Counted from the first letter of the stretch, positions 14,512 to 23,656 are shown. The stretch is DNA of 37,404 nucleotides from Candidatus Poribacteria bacterium (GCA_024278235.1 JAJRTO010000514.1:1-37404); one strand, 5' to 3'. Numbers and translations: made by a program. Notes: generated by a model not told the origin, from the sequence alone.

Positions 14512-15585
14512 ATGCTGACCAAAGAAATGCTCCCAACCTTACCGGCGACACCGGGTGTCTATTTCTTCAAGGATGAACGGAAGAAACTACTCTACGTAGG
14601 TAAGGCCAAATCGCTTCGCAAGCGCGTGATGTCCTATACGTATGAATCGAAAAAGCGTCCCCGGCGGATTCGAGAATTGATCAAGCGCACCGAATGGGTT
14701 GAATACGATCTCTGTGGATCCGAATTGGAGGCACTGATCGTCGAATCTCGCCTCATCAAAGAATACCAGCCCTCCTTCAATCGCGCTCAGAAGCGTTTTC
14801 GTCGATTTCGCTTCATCAAGATCGACGCTTGCATGGCATTTCCAAGAGTATCCGTTGTATCTGAGATTCACGGCGACGATGCACGCTACTTTGGGCCTTT
14901 TCACAGTTTTGATGCAGCAGAAAGTGCTGTTGGTGTGATTCACAAGCTATTCCCGATACGCGTTTGTGAGGGGCCGCTTGTGCCAAATGCTCAGACACGC
15001 CCTTGTTTTGAGTTTCACCTGGAGCGATGCCATGCCCCATGTGCAGACAGGATTTCACCTGAAGAATATGCCCGGATGCTGGAGGATGTGGAACGCTTTC
15101 TGAGAGGCGAGAATGAAATATTTCTCAAGCGATTGATAGAAAAGCGAGACGCCGCCTCCCGCGTCCTTGAATTCGAGAAAGCAGCCCATATCCAACGTCA
15201 GATCAAACAAATACAGTATGTCCTGGATCGTCACCGGTTCTGCGTGAACTCAGTGGATCACAATGACGTGGCGGTCATTGGAGTACCCGGCCCGGGAGGG
15301 CAAACAGTTCTGCTGATCCGCTACGGTCGTCTCGAAGCCCACGAACGTCTGGTCGGCAGTACTAAGCAGCGAAGGAGCAAACTGCAGAGGAGAGTGAGAC
15401 AGATCTACTCGATGGATACTCCTCCAGAGGGATGCACACCTTTTGATGTCGATGCGATGAACATCATCTCAAGCTGGCTCTATCAGCACCGGGACGAGCA
15501 ATCCATCGTGCACTTTCATCAGGATATCGAGCAGTTCACGGATGCGATTCTGCTCACAGCAGAGCGGATTCGGCTCCTTTCCTGA
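14512..15585 (+). CDS. UvrC-like GIY-YIG endonuclease lacking the UvrC C-terminal nuclease and HhH domains (Cho-like)
   Basis: GIY-YIG core (PGVYFFKDERKKLLYVGKAKSLRKRV...ALIVESRLIKEYQPSFN) and UVR-like helix (EFEKAAHIQRQIKQIQYVLDR). Ends at 357 aa. Confidence 0.85.
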   Translation: MLTKEMLPTLPATPGVYFFKDERKKLLYVGKAKSLRKRVMSYTYESKKRPRRIRELIKRTEWVEYDLCGSELEALIVESRLIKEYQPSFNRAQKRFRRFRFIKIDACMAFPRVSVVSEIHGDDARYFGPFHSFDAAESAVGVIHKLFPIRVCEGPLVPNAQTRPCFEFHLERCHAPCADRISPEEYARMLEDVERFLRGENEIFLKRLIEKRDAASRVLEFEKAAHIQRQIKQIQYVLDRHRFCVNSVDHNDVAVIGVPGPGGQTVLLIRYGRLEAHERLVGSTKQRRSKLQRRVRQIYSMDTPPEGCTPFDVDAMNIISSWLYQHRDEQSIVHFHQDIEQFTDAILLTAERIRLLS

Positions 15586-15633: not shown

Positions 15634-16029
15634 TCAATGTACAAACCAACGACCAGCAGGAACCGCCAAGTTCAGCAAAATATGTGCAACCACCGTCCAG
15701 CGTATAGATCCGCTCGTCCTCGCCACCCATCCCCATACAAGACCCAGCAAAATGGACTGCAAGGCAAATCCCACCCCTCCACCAATTCCACTATTCTCAA
15801 CGGCCTGCGGTGATATATGCCACACCCCAAACCAGATTGAAGGGTACACATATCCCCAAAACCATCCTTTGGGAAACCCCACAACGAATGTCCCACGCCA
15901 CAGCACTTCCTCCATCATCCCATTCACAACCGCATATGAGGCGGACCATACCATCACCGCCACACTCGCAGAACGAACTTCTCCCGGAAAAACCGTCAGG
16001 TACGATGTTGGCCCGACGACCAGGTTCCG
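15634..16029 (-). pseudogene. CPBP (CAAX/Abi) family intramembrane protease, apparently N-terminally truncated
   Basis: EEVLWRG (EExxxR), WFGVWHIS and VAHILLN motifs in order. The open frame extends upstream only to a stop at 16030-16032, leaving no room for the usual N-terminal transmembrane helices. Confidence 0.6.
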
Positions 16030-16090: not shown

Positions 16091-17665
16091 TCACAAATCT
16101 ACATTAGGCACAACTTGAATATGCCATAGCCATTCTGCTGGTATCGGTTGCAGTTTCTCATCTTGCTTCCACAACAGCCGGATCACGCCCTTGTTTTTAT
16201 TGTTGTAGTATTCCAGCAGGATGGAGTGCAAACCCTCTTCAAGTGAGATTCGCTTGCCGTGTATCGTGGGGGCATGATCGTTCCAGTCATCCACGATAAG
16301 TTTCCCATCCACCCAGAGTCTCGCGCCATCATCATTTTGCACGAGCAGCTCATATTCATCCGCCTCAGGTAGTCTGAGCCATCCGATCCAGCGGGCAGAG
16401 AACAGGTTCTCAGATGCAACATCTTCCACCGGTGATTCAGACCATTGGAAGTTCACCTGCTTATCAACACGCAGCGAGTGTTCGGTATCGAAGCTCTTAC
16501 CCCGATAGTAAACACCTTGCAGCCCCTGTTGCAAAAGGGAAGTCGTGAGCAGATACCGGAGCAACTCATCTTTCTCCAGAGAAATACCCTCGCCAAGCAT
16601 CTGCCGTAATGCCTTTTGTGCAAAGACGCGGATGTCTCCTTCTGGCTCGGACAACGCATTCACCAGCACCACCGGCTTCATCGCCTCTGCTGTCAGAGGG
16701 ATCTGTGACAGCGCATCATTGGCCTGAGCACGAGTTACCCCCTGGGCGGCTTGTGTCCACCAAAGTCCCAGCAGATCATGTTTCTCGATCAACAATTCAA
16801 GGGCCTGCTGCTGAATCTCAGATTGCGGATGTTTCAGTGCCCGTCGCAACGCGGATCGTTGGTCGAGCATACCCAGACGTTTAAGTGCCGTACGGGCCCT
16901 CTTTATGTCATCCCCATACAGCAACCGATTGAGGTACTCCAGGTCATTCCATTGTTGAACCTCTTTTGCTCGTTGCCGCGCTTCTTCTGCGAGCTTGCGA
17001 TTGTGTTGGATCAGTTTCTGGTATCTGTCCACCTGGGCACGCATCCGCTCTGCATCTTCGGTTTTGCCATCTTCTTCCCACCTCTGAGCCGCATGCAGGC
17101 TGTAACGGACACCCATGGCGTCATAGAGCCTTGCTGTCCGTTCCCGGGCTTCGGCGATCACTTCAAATTGCTCGGGATACTTTGCCTTGCGCTCCAACAC
17201 ACTGAGTTCGAGTCCCAGCATGCCGTGATGCATCATTGGATAGAGATCCGCCGAGGCGATCATCCGTATCTCAACACGGCGTCTTGATTTTTCACGCCGG
17301 GCTGGTGTCGGTTGGACCTTTTCCCAGTCTTCTTTCGCCTTGTCGCGGCAAGTCGCGATCCATTGCTCAAAATCCCGGAGCCATTTCTCGCTCTCGGCGA
17401 TCTTTCCTGTATTATTGCGAGCTTGATAGTATGCGAGATACTCCTCATACTGAGGTACTGAAATCCAGTAATAGAATTCAGCAGCGAGTTCCCTCTCCTC
17501 GGCCGCGCGGGCGAATCGTCCGGCCTTCTCAAATTTCTCGGCGTGCTTCATGTTGGCGATGGGTACGCCGAGGACGGCGAACGATGGCAGGCACAGGATG
17601 GAGAACACAAGACATAGGATGCAGAACACAAAGCTGAGAGATCTGAGACGGGGGGAGAGGGCCAT
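16091..17665 (-). CDS. secreted helical/HEAT-like protein with C-terminal PA14 domain
   Basis: Signal peptide, helical repeats, HEAT-like section (KHPQSEIQQQALELLIEKHD), PA14 signature (LQGVYYRGKSF...FSARWIGWLRLPEADEYELLVQNDDGARLWVDGKLIVDDW). Confidence 0.8.
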   Translation of the reverse strand: MALSPRLRSLSFVFCILCLVFSILCLPSFAVLGVPIANMKHAEKFEKAGRFARAAEERELAAEFYYWISVPQYEEYLAYYQARNNTGKIAESEKWLRDFEQWIATCRDKAKEDWEKVQPTPARREKSRRRVEIRMIASADLYPMMHHGMLGLELSVLERKAKYPEQFEVIAEARERTARLYDAMGVRYSLHAAQRWEEDGKTEDAERMRAQVDRYQKLIQHNRKLAEEARQRAKEVQQWNDLEYLNRLLYGDDIKRARTALKRLGMLDQRSALRRALKHPQSEIQQQALELLIEKHDLLGLWWTQAAQGVTRAQANDALSQIPLTAEAMKPVVLVNALSEPEGDIRVFAQKALRQMLGEGISLEKDELLRYLLTTSLLQQGLQGVYYRGKSFDTEHSLRVDKQVNFQWSESPVEDVASENLFSARWIGWLRLPEADEYELLVQNDDGARLWVDGKLIVDDWNDHAPTIHGKRISLEEGLHSILLEYYNNKNKGVIRLLWKQDEKLQPIPAEWLWHIQVVPNVDL

Positions 17666-17668
17666 TGT

Positions 17669-19339
17669 CTATTCCTCTTCTTTCAACTGATCCGCCAGGA
17701 TTCCCGCTGTGATCCCGTTGATCAGTTGTGTGAGCCAGGACGATTCGGGAGAGGTGAGGGAAAGCGTCAGTTCATTCGGTGTCGTCTTCAGTACCAGTAT
17801 CAGAGGTGTGATTTGCTCCAGACGTTGTGCAATCGGATCCGGGACGGTTTCCTGACTCTGACCTGCAATGAACTGGAGGATGTCTCCGGCGGAAACATAG
17901 GCCGCAATTCGACCATCAATCGGAGTATCACGGTCCGCTTCCAACAATCTATAGATCTGACCCGGATGATTGCTCAACGCGATCAACCCGCTCCCATCAC
18001 GCTGGCGTAGGATCGTTGCTGTCGGGGTTAGTGCGATCCCGGGGACAAGCTGATCTATTGATAGGAACAGTTTGTAGACATCCTGGCCCTGTTTTTCTTC
18101 GACGCCCAATACAGACGCATGTGCGAGTCCTGTGCGCTGGAGCGACTTGCTGATGCGGCTCATGGCCTCGGTAAAATCGGACACGTCGCTCAGGCCAACG
18201 AAGATAATCGGTGCGAGCTTCAGAAGGTCAAGGGGACGGTTTTCAGGATTAAACTCCCCTTCAGGAATGCTCAGCATGGCCCCGATTTCTCCGGAAAAGA
18301 GCGGCAGGAATTTCTTCCGCAGATCGACCCCGACGAGATCACTCAACTGTCGGATCCCCTGAAGTATCTCCTTCGATTGCTCGTCCCCGGTAAGAGGAAA
18401 AAGCGTGTTCCATATCTGCTGCAAGTCCCCGATATTCAATCCCAACCAGACGCCCTGAACATCGGTGAGCCACGAAGAGGAAAGCATGGGGGGACGTTCC
18501 GTGAAGATCAATTGGTAGAAGATCTTGATGAATGGATTGTCCGGTTCATGTACCTTCAGATAGAGTTTCTGTTCATAGCCTGTCAGGTCGATCTTAAGTC
18601 CTATGGCTTCCAGCGCACTGAAAATCGCCTCTGCCCCGGGATCGGGTGCTTCATCGCCCTGCATCAACATAGGTGCAAGTTGCTCAAGATCTGCATAGCC
18701 CCAGACTTGTCCTTCTGTTCCGAGATCCTGCACCATGCTCTGGTAGGCATCGGTCGTATGTATCGGCTTGCCGTCTCCGAGCATCCTGTCCACAACGCGT
18801 TGAAATCCTCCGTTGAAGCCGAGCACAAACAGATTCTCAATGGATGCAAAACATATGGCGTTTTCTTCGTTTGTGATCCCTTCATAATCGATCCCACGAT
18901 AGGTGCCAGGTTGTGGGAGTTGCTCCCCATTTGACTCTGTAAGTATGCGGATTTCATCGATCACCTCCGCCGCCTGATCGGGATCGCGGCGCACATCTGT
19001 CAGAAATGCGAGGATCGCTTTCCCGTTGTCCAGGCCATAAAATGCCAGGGTAAGCTCATCCCCAAAAAGATTCAGAAAATCCTCAAAGCCTATGCCAACC
19101 AGCATGGGCACAATCGGAGCCATCTGTTGAAGCATCTCCTCGAGCATAGCGAAGGAAGATAACTCCTGGATGCCTTCTTTCTGTATCGTGCGATTGATCT
19201 CGGTCAGCAGGCGTGGCAGATCTCCGACTCTCACAAATCCAATCGCATCCGCAGAGACCATCTCGGAAATATCCAACGCAGCATGGCCTGATCCTGTTAT
19301 CAACAATAGCAATACGATCCCAACTGCAAACTTTCGCAT
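17669..19339 (-). CDS. secreted DUF3352-like protein of unknown function
   Basis: Signal peptide followed by VSADAIGFVRVGDLPRLL...FLNLFGDELTLAFYGLDNGKAILAFLTDVR, characteristic of DUF3352-type proteins. Confidence 0.7.
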   Translation of the reverse strand: MRKFAVGIVLLLLITGSGHAALDISEMVSADAIGFVRVGDLPRLLTEINRTIQKEGIQELSSFAMLEEMLQQMAPIVPMLVGIGFEDFLNLFGDELTLAFYGLDNGKAILAFLTDVRRDPDQAAEVIDEIRILTESNGEQLPQPGTYRGIDYEGITNEENAICFASIENLFVLGFNGGFQRVVDRMLGDGKPIHTTDAYQSMVQDLGTEGQVWGYADLEQLAPMLMQGDEAPDPGAEAIFSALEAIGLKIDLTGYEQKLYLKVHEPDNPFIKIFYQLIFTERPPMLSSSWLTDVQGVWLGLNIGDLQQIWNTLFPLTGDEQSKEILQGIRQLSDLVGVDLRKKFLPLFSGEIGAMLSIPEGEFNPENRPLDLLKLAPIIFVGLSDVSDFTEAMSRISKSLQRTGLAHASVLGVEEKQGQDVYKLFLSIDQLVPGIALTPTATILRQRDGSGLIALSNHPGQIYRLLEADRDTPIDGRIAAYVSAGDILQFIAGQSQETVPDPIAQRLEQITPLILVLKTTPNELTLSLTSPESSWLTQLINGITAGILADQLKEEE

Positions 19340-19355
19340 AACGATTCTCCTTATC

Positions 19356-20768
19356 TCAATCCAGACAGTAAAAGAAGAAATTCATCGAACCGACATACAA
19401 ACGTCCGTCTGAGATGGCAGGGGAAGCCAAGATACGGGCATCCGTGTTGAATGCGCTCTTGCTTGCGTCAAACTCCCAGATGGATTTACCTTCTGTGTCG
19501 AGTGTATAGAGTCGTCCTCTGTTAGAGCCAAAGTAGACCCGATCATCGGTGAGTGCGGGCGACGAGAGGATCGGGGCTTCCGCATCAAATCGCCAGATCT
19601 CCTGCCCCGATGATGCATCAACGCAGTAGAATAGGCCATCACGTGACCCAAAATAAGCCCGGCCTGCCCCCAATGCAACCGACGTCAGGACAGCATCTTG
19701 CGCCTCGAAATACCACTGCTTTTCGCCAGAGAGGGCGTCCACGCAGATAACGCCGCCCTGGGGATCCAGAGGATCGCTGATATCGAAGTTCCCATTGCCA
19801 ACCCCCAGGATCACTCTCCCTTCGACACTCGAAGGTGCTCCCCAGGCAGGGACCTCCAACGGAATCTTCCAGAGCTTCTGACCGGTCTCAAAGTCCAGGC
19901 AGTACAGGCCCTCATCCCCGTAACCGGAACCGAAGTAGACGCGCCCATCCATCACAAGTGGAGCTGAGTCAGCATGGACTCCGGGGAATTGCCAGATCAC
20001 TTCGCCACTGACCGCATCGAGACAATAGACCCCGTCTTCACCCGCACCGAAGATGACCTTTCCATCGACTACCGTTGGGCTGGATTCTGTGTGGCTGGTT
20101 GTCTGGAATTGCCATATCAATTCTCCTGTCACCGCATCCACGCAGTAGAAGAGCGCGTCGTCCACATAGTGGAGTCCCTCGCCAAAGTAGACGCGTCCAT
20201 CCGCAACCGCAGGCGATGAAAAGAGTTCATACATCGCCTCGAACTTCCACAGGACTTGACCCGTATCGGCATCAAAACAATAGAGAAAATAGTTGTCACT
20301 CCCGACGTAAACTCGATTACCAGCAATAGCAGCGGAGGAGTTGAACGGTGCGCGATCCAGCCTCTCACGGAACCTCCATTGCTCAACGCCTTCGATAGGG
20401 CCCGGTTCCGCTTGATTTGTCCGTGTGATGTTTCTTCCCAGCATGGGCCAACCTGTTAAGGGTGCGGATACTGAAGTAGGGGTCGCTGGCCCAGAGAGGC
20501 GAAAGGCAAGAAGCACAGCCACCGCGATCAATCCGAGCAAGGTAGCGGATACCAGAGATGGTCTGTTACGCCATTTCGCAAATAGCCCCTTCCACGTGCT
20601 CCATTTGAAAGCAAGCGAGATGGTGAAGACAAGAAACAGGAATATCTGTGGCAGGAAAGAAAGTACCCCTTGCATGACAGACCAGAGTTGAGGAACCACG
20701 GCCTCCGCAGCGTGCGTGCTCAGAAACAGTACGAGTATGAGCAGCCAGAGATTCATTGTTCCTCCCAC
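19356..20768 (-). CDS. membrane-anchored PQQ-like beta-propeller repeat protein
   Basis: Repeated AxxVYFGSxxGxLYCLDAxTGExxWxF units after N-terminal transmembrane segments. Confidence 0.88.
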   Translation of the reverse strand: MGGTMNLWLLILVLFLSTHAAEAVVPQLWSVMQGVLSFLPQIFLFLVFTISLAFKWSTWKGLFAKWRNRPSLVSATLLGLIAVAVLLAFRLSGPATPTSVSAPLTGWPMLGRNITRTNQAEPGPIEGVEQWRFRERLDRAPFNSSAAIAGNRVYVGSDNYFLYCFDADTGQVLWKFEAMYELFSSPAVADGRVYFGEGLHYVDDALFYCVDAVTGELIWQFQTTSHTESSPTVVDGKVIFGAGEDGVYCLDAVSGEVIWQFPGVHADSAPLVMDGRVYFGSGYGDEGLYCLDFETGQKLWKIPLEVPAWGAPSSVEGRVILGVGNGNFDISDPLDPQGGVICVDALSGEKQWYFEAQDAVLTSVALGAGRAYFGSRDGLFYCVDASSGQEIWRFDAEAPILSSPALTDDRVYFGSNRGRLYTLDTEGKSIWEFDASKSAFNTDARILASPAISDGRLYVGSMNFFFYCLD

Positions 20769-22267
20769 TCGCGTTCTTCCAGATTGCCGGGGGAAATCAG
20801 CACATCGGTCACTTTCCCGGTTTCATCGTCAACGAATATGATAGCGAGATCGCTGAAGTCCTGGGTATAGTAAGATACGGTCCAGCAAAACCCCTGAAAC
20901 CACGCAAATTCTTTGATGTTCCTGTGCTCTCTGAAAATTTGCCTGACCTTTGCATGGGTTCTTGCCGCTTGAATCGCCTTCTCAGCAGTGAGCTTGTGCT
21001 TGGACTGTGGTACACGAAATTCCTTGTTGTCCGCTTCAACAGGCCAATACTGTGGGTTCTTCTCTGCCAGGGCCCGTAGCGTTGCTGAACGTCTCAGATG
21101 TCCATCTCGTACCTGCTGATACAGTTCCGCCTGATGGGATAATGGCTTTACCAATTCCTGGCGATTGGAGTCTTTTGCCTGTTTGACTGCATTGCGAAAA
21201 TACTGGATAGTCACCCTGTCATACTGCTTGGCACACATATCTGAGGCTTCTGCTTCTAGTAGCAGTGCTTGGCGGTATTTCTGCTGATCCTTCAGAGCCT
21301 CCATCGGTTCTCTGAAGGAATTCTGATAGATGCCAAAGTTATAGAACTGCTTTGGGTAATAGGCAACCCATTCTCCTATGAACTCACGGATCTTGGCGCG
21401 TTCAGCATCGAGTTCCTTCTGGTTCTCGGTTGCCTTTTCCCAAAGCAGTTTGGAGCGTCGCAGATGTTCTTCGCGTTGTCGCTCGATATCCGCTATCTCC
21501 TCCTTGAGTTTCTCGACCATATCCACATCACGACGGCGTTGGGCATATTCGAGCGTGATCTCTGACAAAGGCGTCGAGATCACATCCAGACATTGCGCTG
21601 CCGCTTCTCGCCAGAGAGCAGCCTTGCCGAACGCCTGCTTTCGTTCATAGCGACGTATCATGATGTTCGCGTTCGCTGTTCCTTCACGAACCGCTTCAGA
21701 TGAGGGAACGATCCCGTAGAAGCATATCGAGCCTGCCAGGAATAGTATCATAACGTTGGTCTTTGAGGTTCGCTGACGCAGAGATCCTACCAATGCCCCC
21801 AGTCCCCGTGCAAGCAGGATCACCCACAGGATCTGACCAAGGATCGGGACCAGGAAAGCCAGGTTGAAAGTGACTGCTCCCAGTAGAATTGTGGTCAATG
21901 GGGTGCTATTCTCCCTGAGCAGGGCGATGCGTTGGCCGATCTCCTGTGCTTCGATTGCAAACGCACATAGGCTCAATATCAGCAGGATCAGAAACAGAAT
22001 GCCGACAACAGGATCGGGTGCACCGAAACCAGCGACAGCCAGAACGATTCCAATGATCACAACATAGTTGAGCAAGCCAAGCCAGATCCCGCTATGACCA
22101 CGCTGCTGGGCACGCATCGCCGCATCTTCCAATCGGGTACGAAAGAAGGTTACTGCTAACACACAAAACGCCATCAGCCCCACGGAGATGGCGATATAAA
22201 GAATGGTGCCCCCAAAGAGCGAGGCAACTTTCTCTGCTGCATCACCAGCAAAGGCGAATCCAATCAT
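20753..22267 (-). CDS. membrane protein with long helical region, unknown function
   Basis: Several hydrophobic segments in the N-terminal ~190 aa, then charged helices. Overlaps the downstream PQQ gene by 16 nt. Confidence 0.75.
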   Translation of the reverse strand: MIGFAFAGDAAEKVASLFGGTILYIAISVGLMAFCVLAVTFFRTRLEDAAMRAQQRGHSGIWLGLLNYVVIIGIVLAVAGFGAPDPVVGILFLILLILSLCAFAIEAQEIGQRIALLRENSTPLTTILLGAVTFNLAFLVPILGQILWVILLARGLGALVGSLRQRTSKTNVMILFLAGSICFYGIVPSSEAVREGTANANIMIRRYERKQAFGKAALWREAAAQCLDVISTPLSEITLEYAQRRRDVDMVEKLKEEIADIERQREEHLRRSKLLWEKATENQKELDAERAKIREFIGEWVAYYPKQFYNFGIYQNSFREPMEALKDQQKYRQALLLEAEASDMCAKQYDRVTIQYFRNAVKQAKDSNRQELVKPLSHQAELYQQVRDGHLRRSATLRALAEKNPQYWPVEADNKEFRVPQSKHKLTAEKAIQAARTHAKVRQIFREHRNIKEFAWFQGFCWTVSYYTQDFSDLAIIFVDDETGKVTDVLISPGNLEEREWEEQ

Positions 22268-22789
22268 CTATCCTCCAGAGTTCCTTGATAAGGTGCGGTG
22301 GTTCCATAGGAGTGTGAGCGCGAGCAGTAGAAGCAGCACGGGCCATATCCAGGAAGGCTGCATTCCGGTCAATTGAGCCGTCTGGTCATCCAGGATATTC
22401 ACGGCGCGTTGTAGCCAACTCCCCGGATTTACCGGGAAGAAAAGCCGCGAAACCCACTGATGCCAGCCGAGCAACCCGGCGTAGCCAAGTCCCAGTACCA
22501 ACAATAACAGTGCCACCAGGGATCCGTGAGGTTGTCTTTGGGGTAACGTCTCCGGATGCATCTGGATCTTTTCCATCACCTGTGCAACCAAATCGCTGTC
22601 CGTTTGCGGTATGGGCTGTTGTATCGCCAATTGATGGAGTTGCTGCATATCATCGAGAGTTTTGCGGCAAGCAGCGCAGTCCAGTAGGTGGGATGCGAGA
22701 TCCGACTTTTTCTGGTCTGTGAGAGATTGTTCCAGGTATTCCTGAATTCTTTCTGTAGCCTGATGACATAGCATGATGGATTGTGCCAT
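22268..22789 (-). CDS. anti-sigma factor with zf-HC2 zinc finger and transmembrane segments
   Basis: HLLDCAACR (Hx3Cx2C) ZAS motif, two hydrophobic segments, immediately downstream of an ECF sigma gene. Start moved to MAQSIMLCHQ at 22789. Confidence 0.85.
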   Translation of the reverse strand: MAQSIMLCHQATERIQEYLEQSLTDQKKSDLASHLLDCAACRKTLDDMQQLHQLAIQQPIPQTDSDLVAQVMEKIQMHPETLPQRQPHGSLVALLLLVLGLGYAGLLGWHQWVSRLFFPVNPGSWLQRAVNILDDQTAQLTGMQPSWIWPVLLLLLALTLLWNHRTLSRNSGG

Positions 22790-22796
22790 CGGGATA

Positions 22797-23357
22797 TCAC
22801 CCTCCATGCCAGAAATGGCGTAGTTGCTTCTGAAGTTTTTGGCGTGCACGGAACAGATAGGTCTTGACAGTACCTTCTGGGATCTCCATGATTTGCGCAA
22901 TTTGACGGCAGTCGTGTCCCTCCAGGTACCGAAGTGTGAACACAAGTCGATGGCGCGATGGAAGCCTCAGAATAGCTTCCTGCAAGGCCATCTGGAGTTC
23001 ATTGGTCTCCACAGACCTCCTTGGGTCAACGGAAAGATTATCGAGTGCATCGTCCGTGGCCGGTAGCTCCCGCTTCTTCTTGTCGATCCAGTTCAAGCAT
23101 AAATTCGAAATGATACGTGAGATCCAGGGGCCAAAGCCCTGTTCCGTCCGAAATCTGGATAGGGCTGTATAGGCTCGTAGAAAACACTCCTGTGTCAGGT
23201 CCTCGGCATCTTCTACTCGACCTGTCATGCGGTAAGCAATCGTATACACCAGCTTCTGGTATCGTTTCATAAGCAGGGCATACGCGTTTCTTTCCCCTTT
23301 TAGCACACGTCGGATGAGCCATGCATCGGTTTCTGTGGGTTGCTTTCTGTTCAGCAC
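22797..23357 (-). CDS. RNA polymerase ECF sigma factor (sigma-70 family, RpoE/SigW type)
   Basis: Sigma2 (YRMTGRVEDAEDLTQECFLRAYTALSRFR) and sigma4 (LPSRHRLVFTLRYLEGHDCRQIAQIMEIPEGTVKTYLFRARQKL). GTG at 23357 is preferred because an extended -10 lies inside the longer ORF that starts at 23408. Confidence 0.92.
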   Translation of the reverse strand: MLNRKQPTETDAWLIRRVLKGERNAYALLMKRYQKLVYTIAYRMTGRVEDAEDLTQECFLRAYTALSRFRTEQGFGPWISRIISNLCLNWIDKKKRELPATDDALDNLSVDPRRSVETNELQMALQEAILRLPSRHRLVFTLRYLEGHDCRQIAQIMEIPEGTVKTYLFRARQKLQKQLRHFWHGG

Positions 23358-23388
23358 GAATGGCCTTTCACGGTGGAAGACGTACTTT

Positions 23389-23397
23389 ATTATACCA
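23389..23397 (-). promoter_or_regulatory. putative extended -10 element (TGG TATAAT) for the ECF sigma operon
   Basis: Perfect TATAAT preceded by TGN on the minus strand upstream of the sigma gene. Confidence 0.45.
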
Positions 23398-23558
23398 TCC
23401 ATCCGCAAATTGGTTTCAAAATTCGATCTTTTCTGATGCCTTCCCGTTCGTCCATTTTCGGAGTCGCTCTTCTTTCTTGCTCCGGAAGGTGCAGGATGAT
23501 ATGATAGGAGCCATCGTGAGCAACGATCCGGGATTGAAAACTAAATAACCTTCCCATT

Positions 23559-23656
23559 TGAGCAAGTTTCACGTGAAACGTTGAACGTTAGAAAAGTACT
23601 GTGGTTGCTGGGTTCCTGGCGTTTGAAACTTAACATCCATTTCTGAAACTTGCTTG
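23559..23656 (+). repeat. Dispersed repeat family A, copy 1 (98 bp, 12-bp TIR, parS-like core, 1 heptamer)
   Basis: TGAGCAAGTTTC ... GAAACTTGCTTG ends; GTTTCACGTGAAAC + GTTGAAC x1 + GTTAG; 66-bp body colinear with two other copies. Confidence 0.9.
23566..23579. promoter_or_regulatory. parS-like palindrome GTTTCACGTGAAAC
   Basis: Perfect 14-bp palindrome identical to the core of canonical parS (TGTTTCACGTGAAACA). Confidence 0.6.

Follow-up and report, generated by a model that had tools for sequence, protein, structure and literature searches.

A putative autoregulated ECF sigma factor operon with a fused membrane partner and secreted envelope proteins in Candidatus Poribacteria

An ECF sigma factor gene and its zinc-type anti-sigma factor gene head a compact series of six genes in Candidatus Poribacteria that may constitute a dedicated, autoregulated envelope-monitoring operon, in which a membrane protein resembling a co-anti-sigma factor would serve as sensor, a reading in which we have moderate confidence. 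Its basis in sequence comprises the gene content, the tight packing, a conserved core order, a promoter motif shared with a second locus and a gene fusion. The window analysed here (37,404 nt) makes up one entire contig of a Poribacteria MAG of 5.19 Mb (G000), and was compared with 85 Poribacteria genomes. Poribacteria are uncultured, mostly sponge-associated bacteria; a literature search found no paper on ECF envelope signalling in Poribacteria, and none on DUF3352.

Layout of the operon and its promoter

All six open reading frames lie on the minus strand, running from 23357 to 16091 (Table 1), and the gene order and compactness given in the initial annotation are borne out. The sigma and anti-sigma genes are separated by 7 nt, the latter beginning at ATG 22789; the anti-sigma gene abuts gene 3 (0 nt); genes 3 and 4 share a 4-nt ATGA overlap (-4 nt); and gaps of 16 and 3 nt precede genes 5 and 6 respectively. 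A Shine-Dalgarno-like sequence stands directly before each of the six starts. Since homologues occur in other genomes, the frames are, on comparative grounds, real coding genes and not chance ones. Two boundaries required correction: the sigma gene had been started at 23408, but this TTG sits inside the promoter and GTG 23357, behind GAAAGG, is the likely start, while a 16-nt overlap described at 20753-20768 needs an upstream GTG, whereas the ATG at 20756 is preceded by GGAGG.

Table 1. Features of the six-gene operon, with positions in the window
Feature	Position	Strand	Basis or remark
Predicted ECF-type promoter, TGAAACC-N16-GTAT	23392..23418	-	Motif common to G014:C604; ~35 nt upstream of sigma start
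ECF sigma factor, 186 aa	22797..23357	-	Pfam Sigma70_r2/r4_2; GTG 23357; Shine-Dalgarno GAAAGG
Class I zinc-type anti-sigma factor, 173 aa	22268..22789	-	zf-HC2; two TM peaks
Gene 3, N-terminal polytopic membrane domain, aa 1-170	21758..22267	-	35% to G014:C604 1512-2102
Gene 3, C-terminal part, aa 171-504: former signal peptide, helical, alpha/beta PepSY-like	20753..21757	-	Family in 67/85 genomes
Gene 4, signal/TM-anchored PQQ-type beta-propeller, 466 aa	19356..20756	-	PQQ_2; ATG 20756
Gene 5, secreted DUF3352-like protein, 556 aa	17669..19339	-	PF11832 at family level
Gene 6, secreted: N-terminal helical, middle HEAT-like (weak), C-terminal PA14	16091..17665	-	PA14 match

Upstream of the sigma gene, the window and its counterpart in genome G014 (contig C604) share TTGAAACCAAT-N13-GTAT. 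A shared 10-mer, 13-nt spacer and 4-mer arose in 3 of 2000 dinucleotide-shuffled pairs, and TGAAAC-N16-NGTA was held by both members in none of 2000, probabilities that are partly post hoc because the motif was first spotted by comparing the two loci. Across the window's genome the pattern has 6 strict and 11 relaxed matches, and the operon site is the only one of those 11 to fall outside an open reading frame. Conservation of the motif and this sole non-coding position together suggest that the operon is autoregulated by its own sigma factor. The proposal that the set carries its own sigma switch, with -35 and -10 elements to be sought upstream and elsewhere, thus gains a shared motif at the operon and no sign of a wider regulon, genome-wide matches being no more frequent than those of a reversed-pattern control and the others lying inside open reading frames. 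An E. coli sigmaE-like GGAAC motif, picked out by eye near 23610, was dropped because the shared motif fits better. A strict match in G014 (C520:9045-9071, L247) precedes by ~15 nt the start of a gene that was recognised by eye as MotA-like; it may mean nothing, as chance matches are equally frequent.

Two other coding sequences in the window are of note. At 15634-15963 on the minus strand, 127 nt downstream of gene 6, a 109-aa frame encodes a CPBP/Rce1 (CAAX-type) protease core (54.8 bits); its upstream frames are closed, so that it looks like a truncated remnant, and it has no paralogue in the window's genome. Proteases related to CPBP/Rce1 can cleave anti-sigma factors (PrsW). On the plus strand, 14512-15585 encodes a short GIY-YIG/UVR protein of 357 aa, a UvrC/Cho-like nuclease with no further UvrC domains by Pfam.

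The six gene products

The sigma factor contains sigma2 and sigma4 domains only (Sigma70_r2 77.9 bits and r4_2 64.5 bits, both well above the Pfam cut-offs; TIGR02937 129 bits against a cut-off of 42.9) and has a length within the ~180-200 aa expected of the ECF group. Its best NCBIfam match is SigW, at 136 bits well below the SigW cut-off of 209, and it is 53% identical over 175 aa to the G014 sigma factor. The anti-sigma factor matches zf-HC2 in Pfam just over the cut-off (22.7 against 22.2 bits) and carries the signature C-x25-H-x3-C-x2-C, followed by a pair of TM helices joined by a short extracytoplasmic loop; the zinc motif reads HLLDCAAC here and HLLYCSAC in the G014 homologue, to which it is 37% identical over 68 aa (Z 21.5). 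With H-x3-C-x2-C in an N-terminal anti-sigma domain and a gene adjoining that of its ECF factor, it conforms to the Class I zinc-type anti-sigma (ZAS) signature (PMC7406223). Because it has no large sensor domain of its own, a partner protein is plausible.

Gene 3 is, on homology evidence, a fusion of a conserved membrane protein with a secreted helical/PepSY-like family. Residues 1-170 match a separate 196-aa membrane protein in G014 (35%, Z 22.3), with the conserved motif EAQ.IG...P..GQI...RG.GA; the membrane protein was found only beside this sigma pair, in two families, with no convincing homologue elsewhere in the 85 genomes (a profile search gave two extras at chance level). Residues 171-504 (gene 3C) match a stand-alone secreted protein present in 67 of the 85 genomes, whose family is recorded at 55 loci, only in Candidatus or uncultured Poribacteria records, and which in other genomes sits elsewhere, unlinked to the sigma gene. 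The fusion joint coincides with the signal peptide of this secreted family (...YGIVPSSEA followed by VREGTANANIMI...), from which the C-terminal part is predicted to be periplasmic. On visual inspection the internal ATG lacks a good Shine-Dalgarno sequence upstream, so gene 3 is likely to encode one protein. The AF2 model (pLDDT 82, above 90 over most of aa 200-490) places a helical domain before a helix-helix-four-strand end. This end matches the PepSY model (PF03413) over its full length but below threshold (13.8 against 24 bits), and the C-terminal domain of YpeB (5boi) weakly in Foldseek (E 0.51), where gene 3 returned nothing at E<=0.001; searching PDB sequences with the families of genes 3 and 5 yielded no useful match.

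Gene 4 encodes a PQQ-type propeller (PQQ_2 167.5 bits in Pfam) with a predicted inner-membrane anchor and no cysteine (lipobox) in the signal region; lacking a lipoprotein signal and scoring 127.9 against the 285.2 bits required, it does not qualify as BamB. Most genomes of the phylum carry a single member of this family, 40-48% identical and sited elsewhere, which in the genomes inspected often follows a conserved protein of ~390-430 aa. A second copy in the window's own genome (C224, L162:6552-9288) still follows that partner, itself 49% identical to the G022 protein. The window propeller, 46-48% identical to the G003 copy, seems to be a paralogue that has diverged from the phylum-wide single-copy family, but with long branches the relationship is uncertain. 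The partner belongs to a family without assignment, with the motif AFI.RHYTLQEVL, and the pair occurs once per genome in most Poribacteria.

Gene 5 itself scores below threshold against DUF3352 (PF11832; 16.1 against 26.8 bits), and 12 of 15 relatives match the model (best 2.4e-14), which supports, in profile terms, a DUF3352 identity at the family level; modelled by AF2 with no alignment, gene 5 gave an unusable structure (pLDDT 37.6). In gene 6 the PA14 domain is strong (70.7 against 24 bits, aa 379-504) and the HEAT match sub-threshold (15.6 against 27.7 bits). The gene 3C profile also matches gene 6 at aa 11-237 (E 4.3e-11; none of 500 shuffled sequences was reported), and by this measure the N-terminal domain is a distant relative of gene 3C; it is 39% identical to a stand-alone 208-aa protein of genome G005 that is without PA14. 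The domain labels first assigned therefore survive for the sigma factor, PQQ and PA14, marginally for zf-HC2 and at the family level for DUF3352, while HEAT remains sub-threshold; the sensor-like roles suggested for the propeller and PA14 are guesses.

Conservation of the switch across Poribacteria

One true counterpart was found among the 85 genomes, namely G014:C604, from another family. The order there is the same: the sigma factor is followed by a zinc-finger anti-sigma factor, a polytopic membrane protein of 196 aa and a DUF3352-like protein. Neighbouring genes overlap slightly or are 3 nt apart, and no propeller gene stands between the last two. C604 breaks off within the DUF3352-like gene, and no contig continuing it past that point was found. 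Contamination as the source of C604 was rejected on composition, its tetranucleotide profile fitting G014 (0.909).

In G005, representing a third family, contigs C427 and C752 share an overlap of exactly 75 bp (L117, L118) and, when joined, set a DUF3352-like gene, its 5' end apparently frameshifted, beside the 208-aa homologue of the gene 6 N-terminal domain. This pair occurs without the orthologous sigma gene; divergent from it are a different ECF sigma factor, a zinc-type anti-sigma factor and a Metal_resist/LTXXQ (CpxP/Spy-type) protein. DUF3352 is the gene common to all three neighbourhoods and acquires here its first conserved regulatory context, and in other families most of its more distant relatives lack a neighbouring sigma pair of this kind. 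Judged by these comparisons, the core switch is conserved and the six-gene set, unique to the window's genome, is not, the other parts being lineage additions. It had been proposed that the operon be abandoned as a unit if the downstream four genes were not co-conserved with the sigma pair; this came half true, since the membrane and DUF3352 genes keep their order with the pair in G014, whereas the gene 3C and propeller families are unlinked to the sigma gene in other genomes, so that the comparison does not support a six-gene unit.

A proposed mechanism and its alternatives

We infer a membrane complex, a signal, a release step and roles for genes 4 to 6 along the following lines. The zinc-type anti-sigma factor, with only a short loop outside, would hold the sigma factor at the inner membrane, where the polytopic protein of gene 3 would act with it as co-anti-sigma factor and sensor, as YhdK does with YhdL, bringing its own periplasmic helical/PepSY-like domain through the fusion. 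On arrival of a signal from the envelope or surface, which that domain would read jointly with the secreted DUF3352-like, propeller and PA14 proteins, the complex would loosen, and the freed sigma factor would transcribe its own operon from TGAAACC-N16-GTAT, producing more of the switch and of the envelope proteins. The three downstream proteins could be signal input, effectors or both.

The nearest model comes from Bacillus subtilis, where the autoregulated sigM operon encodes the anti-sigma complex YhdL-YhdK (PMC6827917). By gene order the present operon appears to fit it, an ECF sigma factor, a membrane anti-sigma factor and a second membrane protein sharing one operon; unlike sigM-yhdL-yhdK, DUF3352, propeller and PA14 genes follow here and the partner carries a fused periplasmic domain. 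YhdK family membership is not claimed for gene 3. RpoE-RseA-RseB offers the same envelope-facing ECF/anti-sigma logic, but the operon has no MucB_RseB match and its anti-sigma factor is without the C-terminal periplasmic domain of RseA. FecI-FecR-TonB differs in that no FecR or TonB receptor domain occurs among the six proteins, and BamB, the repeats of which gene 4 shares, differs in its lipobox. SigW is the nearest NCBIfam model, and TGAAAC-N16-NGTA resembles the SigW promoter consensus, although the score is well below cut-off, the -10 element here is GGTA/TGTA as against CGTA, and the phylum and neighbouring genes are others.

A bolder version, which we consider unlikely, would have gene 3 as a one-protein sensor and co-anti-sigma factor founding a new family of polytopic anti-sigma partners. 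In this lineage the family would have acquired, through fusion, a periplasmic helical/PepSY-like domain specific to Poribacteria, and the stand-alone form found in most Poribacteria would be a soluble signal carrier for envelope-stress switches. The fusion connects an orphan secreted family to an ECF switch in a way that can be tested.

The simplest rival treats the locus as an ordinary ECF/anti-sigma operon: the envelope genes downstream would be no more than regulated cargo for repair or the surface, sensing would fall to the anti-sigma factor alone or to a protease cascade acting on it, and gene 3 would stand outside the switch. We regard this as a genuine but lesser possibility: in the window's genome an ECF/anti-sigma pair is commonly followed by an envelope gene (as on contigs C8 and C34), and both the propeller and gene 3C are members of families general to the phylum, yet the restriction of the membrane protein to the vicinity of this pair is expected of a dedicated partner, and the anti-sigma factor has little outside sequence with which to sense.

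Contact or surface sensing, whereby PA14 and the propeller would recognise glycans of the host (sponge) or matrix and relay the signal to the sigma factor, seems to us improbable. It draws on the strong PA14 match and on a phylum known, as Poribacteria record titles also indicate, largely through sponge-derived MAGs, but PA14 is absent from the G005 homologue of gene 6, G014 has no propeller in its sequenced part, and both parts are lineage add-ons outside the conserved core. About as improbable is a small sigma/anti-sigma operon beside unrelated genes that rely mostly on promoters of their own, for although the full set occurs in one genome and its gene 3C and gene 4 families lie elsewhere in others, the junctions leave no room for promoters, promoter-like matches in the region do not exceed those in shuffles (6 against 5.9), and the membrane and DUF3352 genes are co-conserved with the pair in G014.

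Apart from the envelope-monitoring operon proposed here, the window's genome encodes two more classical envelope-stress systems, an ECF/anti-sigma/MucB_RseB-like module at G000:C8 (L169) and an ECF/anti-sigma/trypsin-PDZ protease module at G000:C34 (L175).
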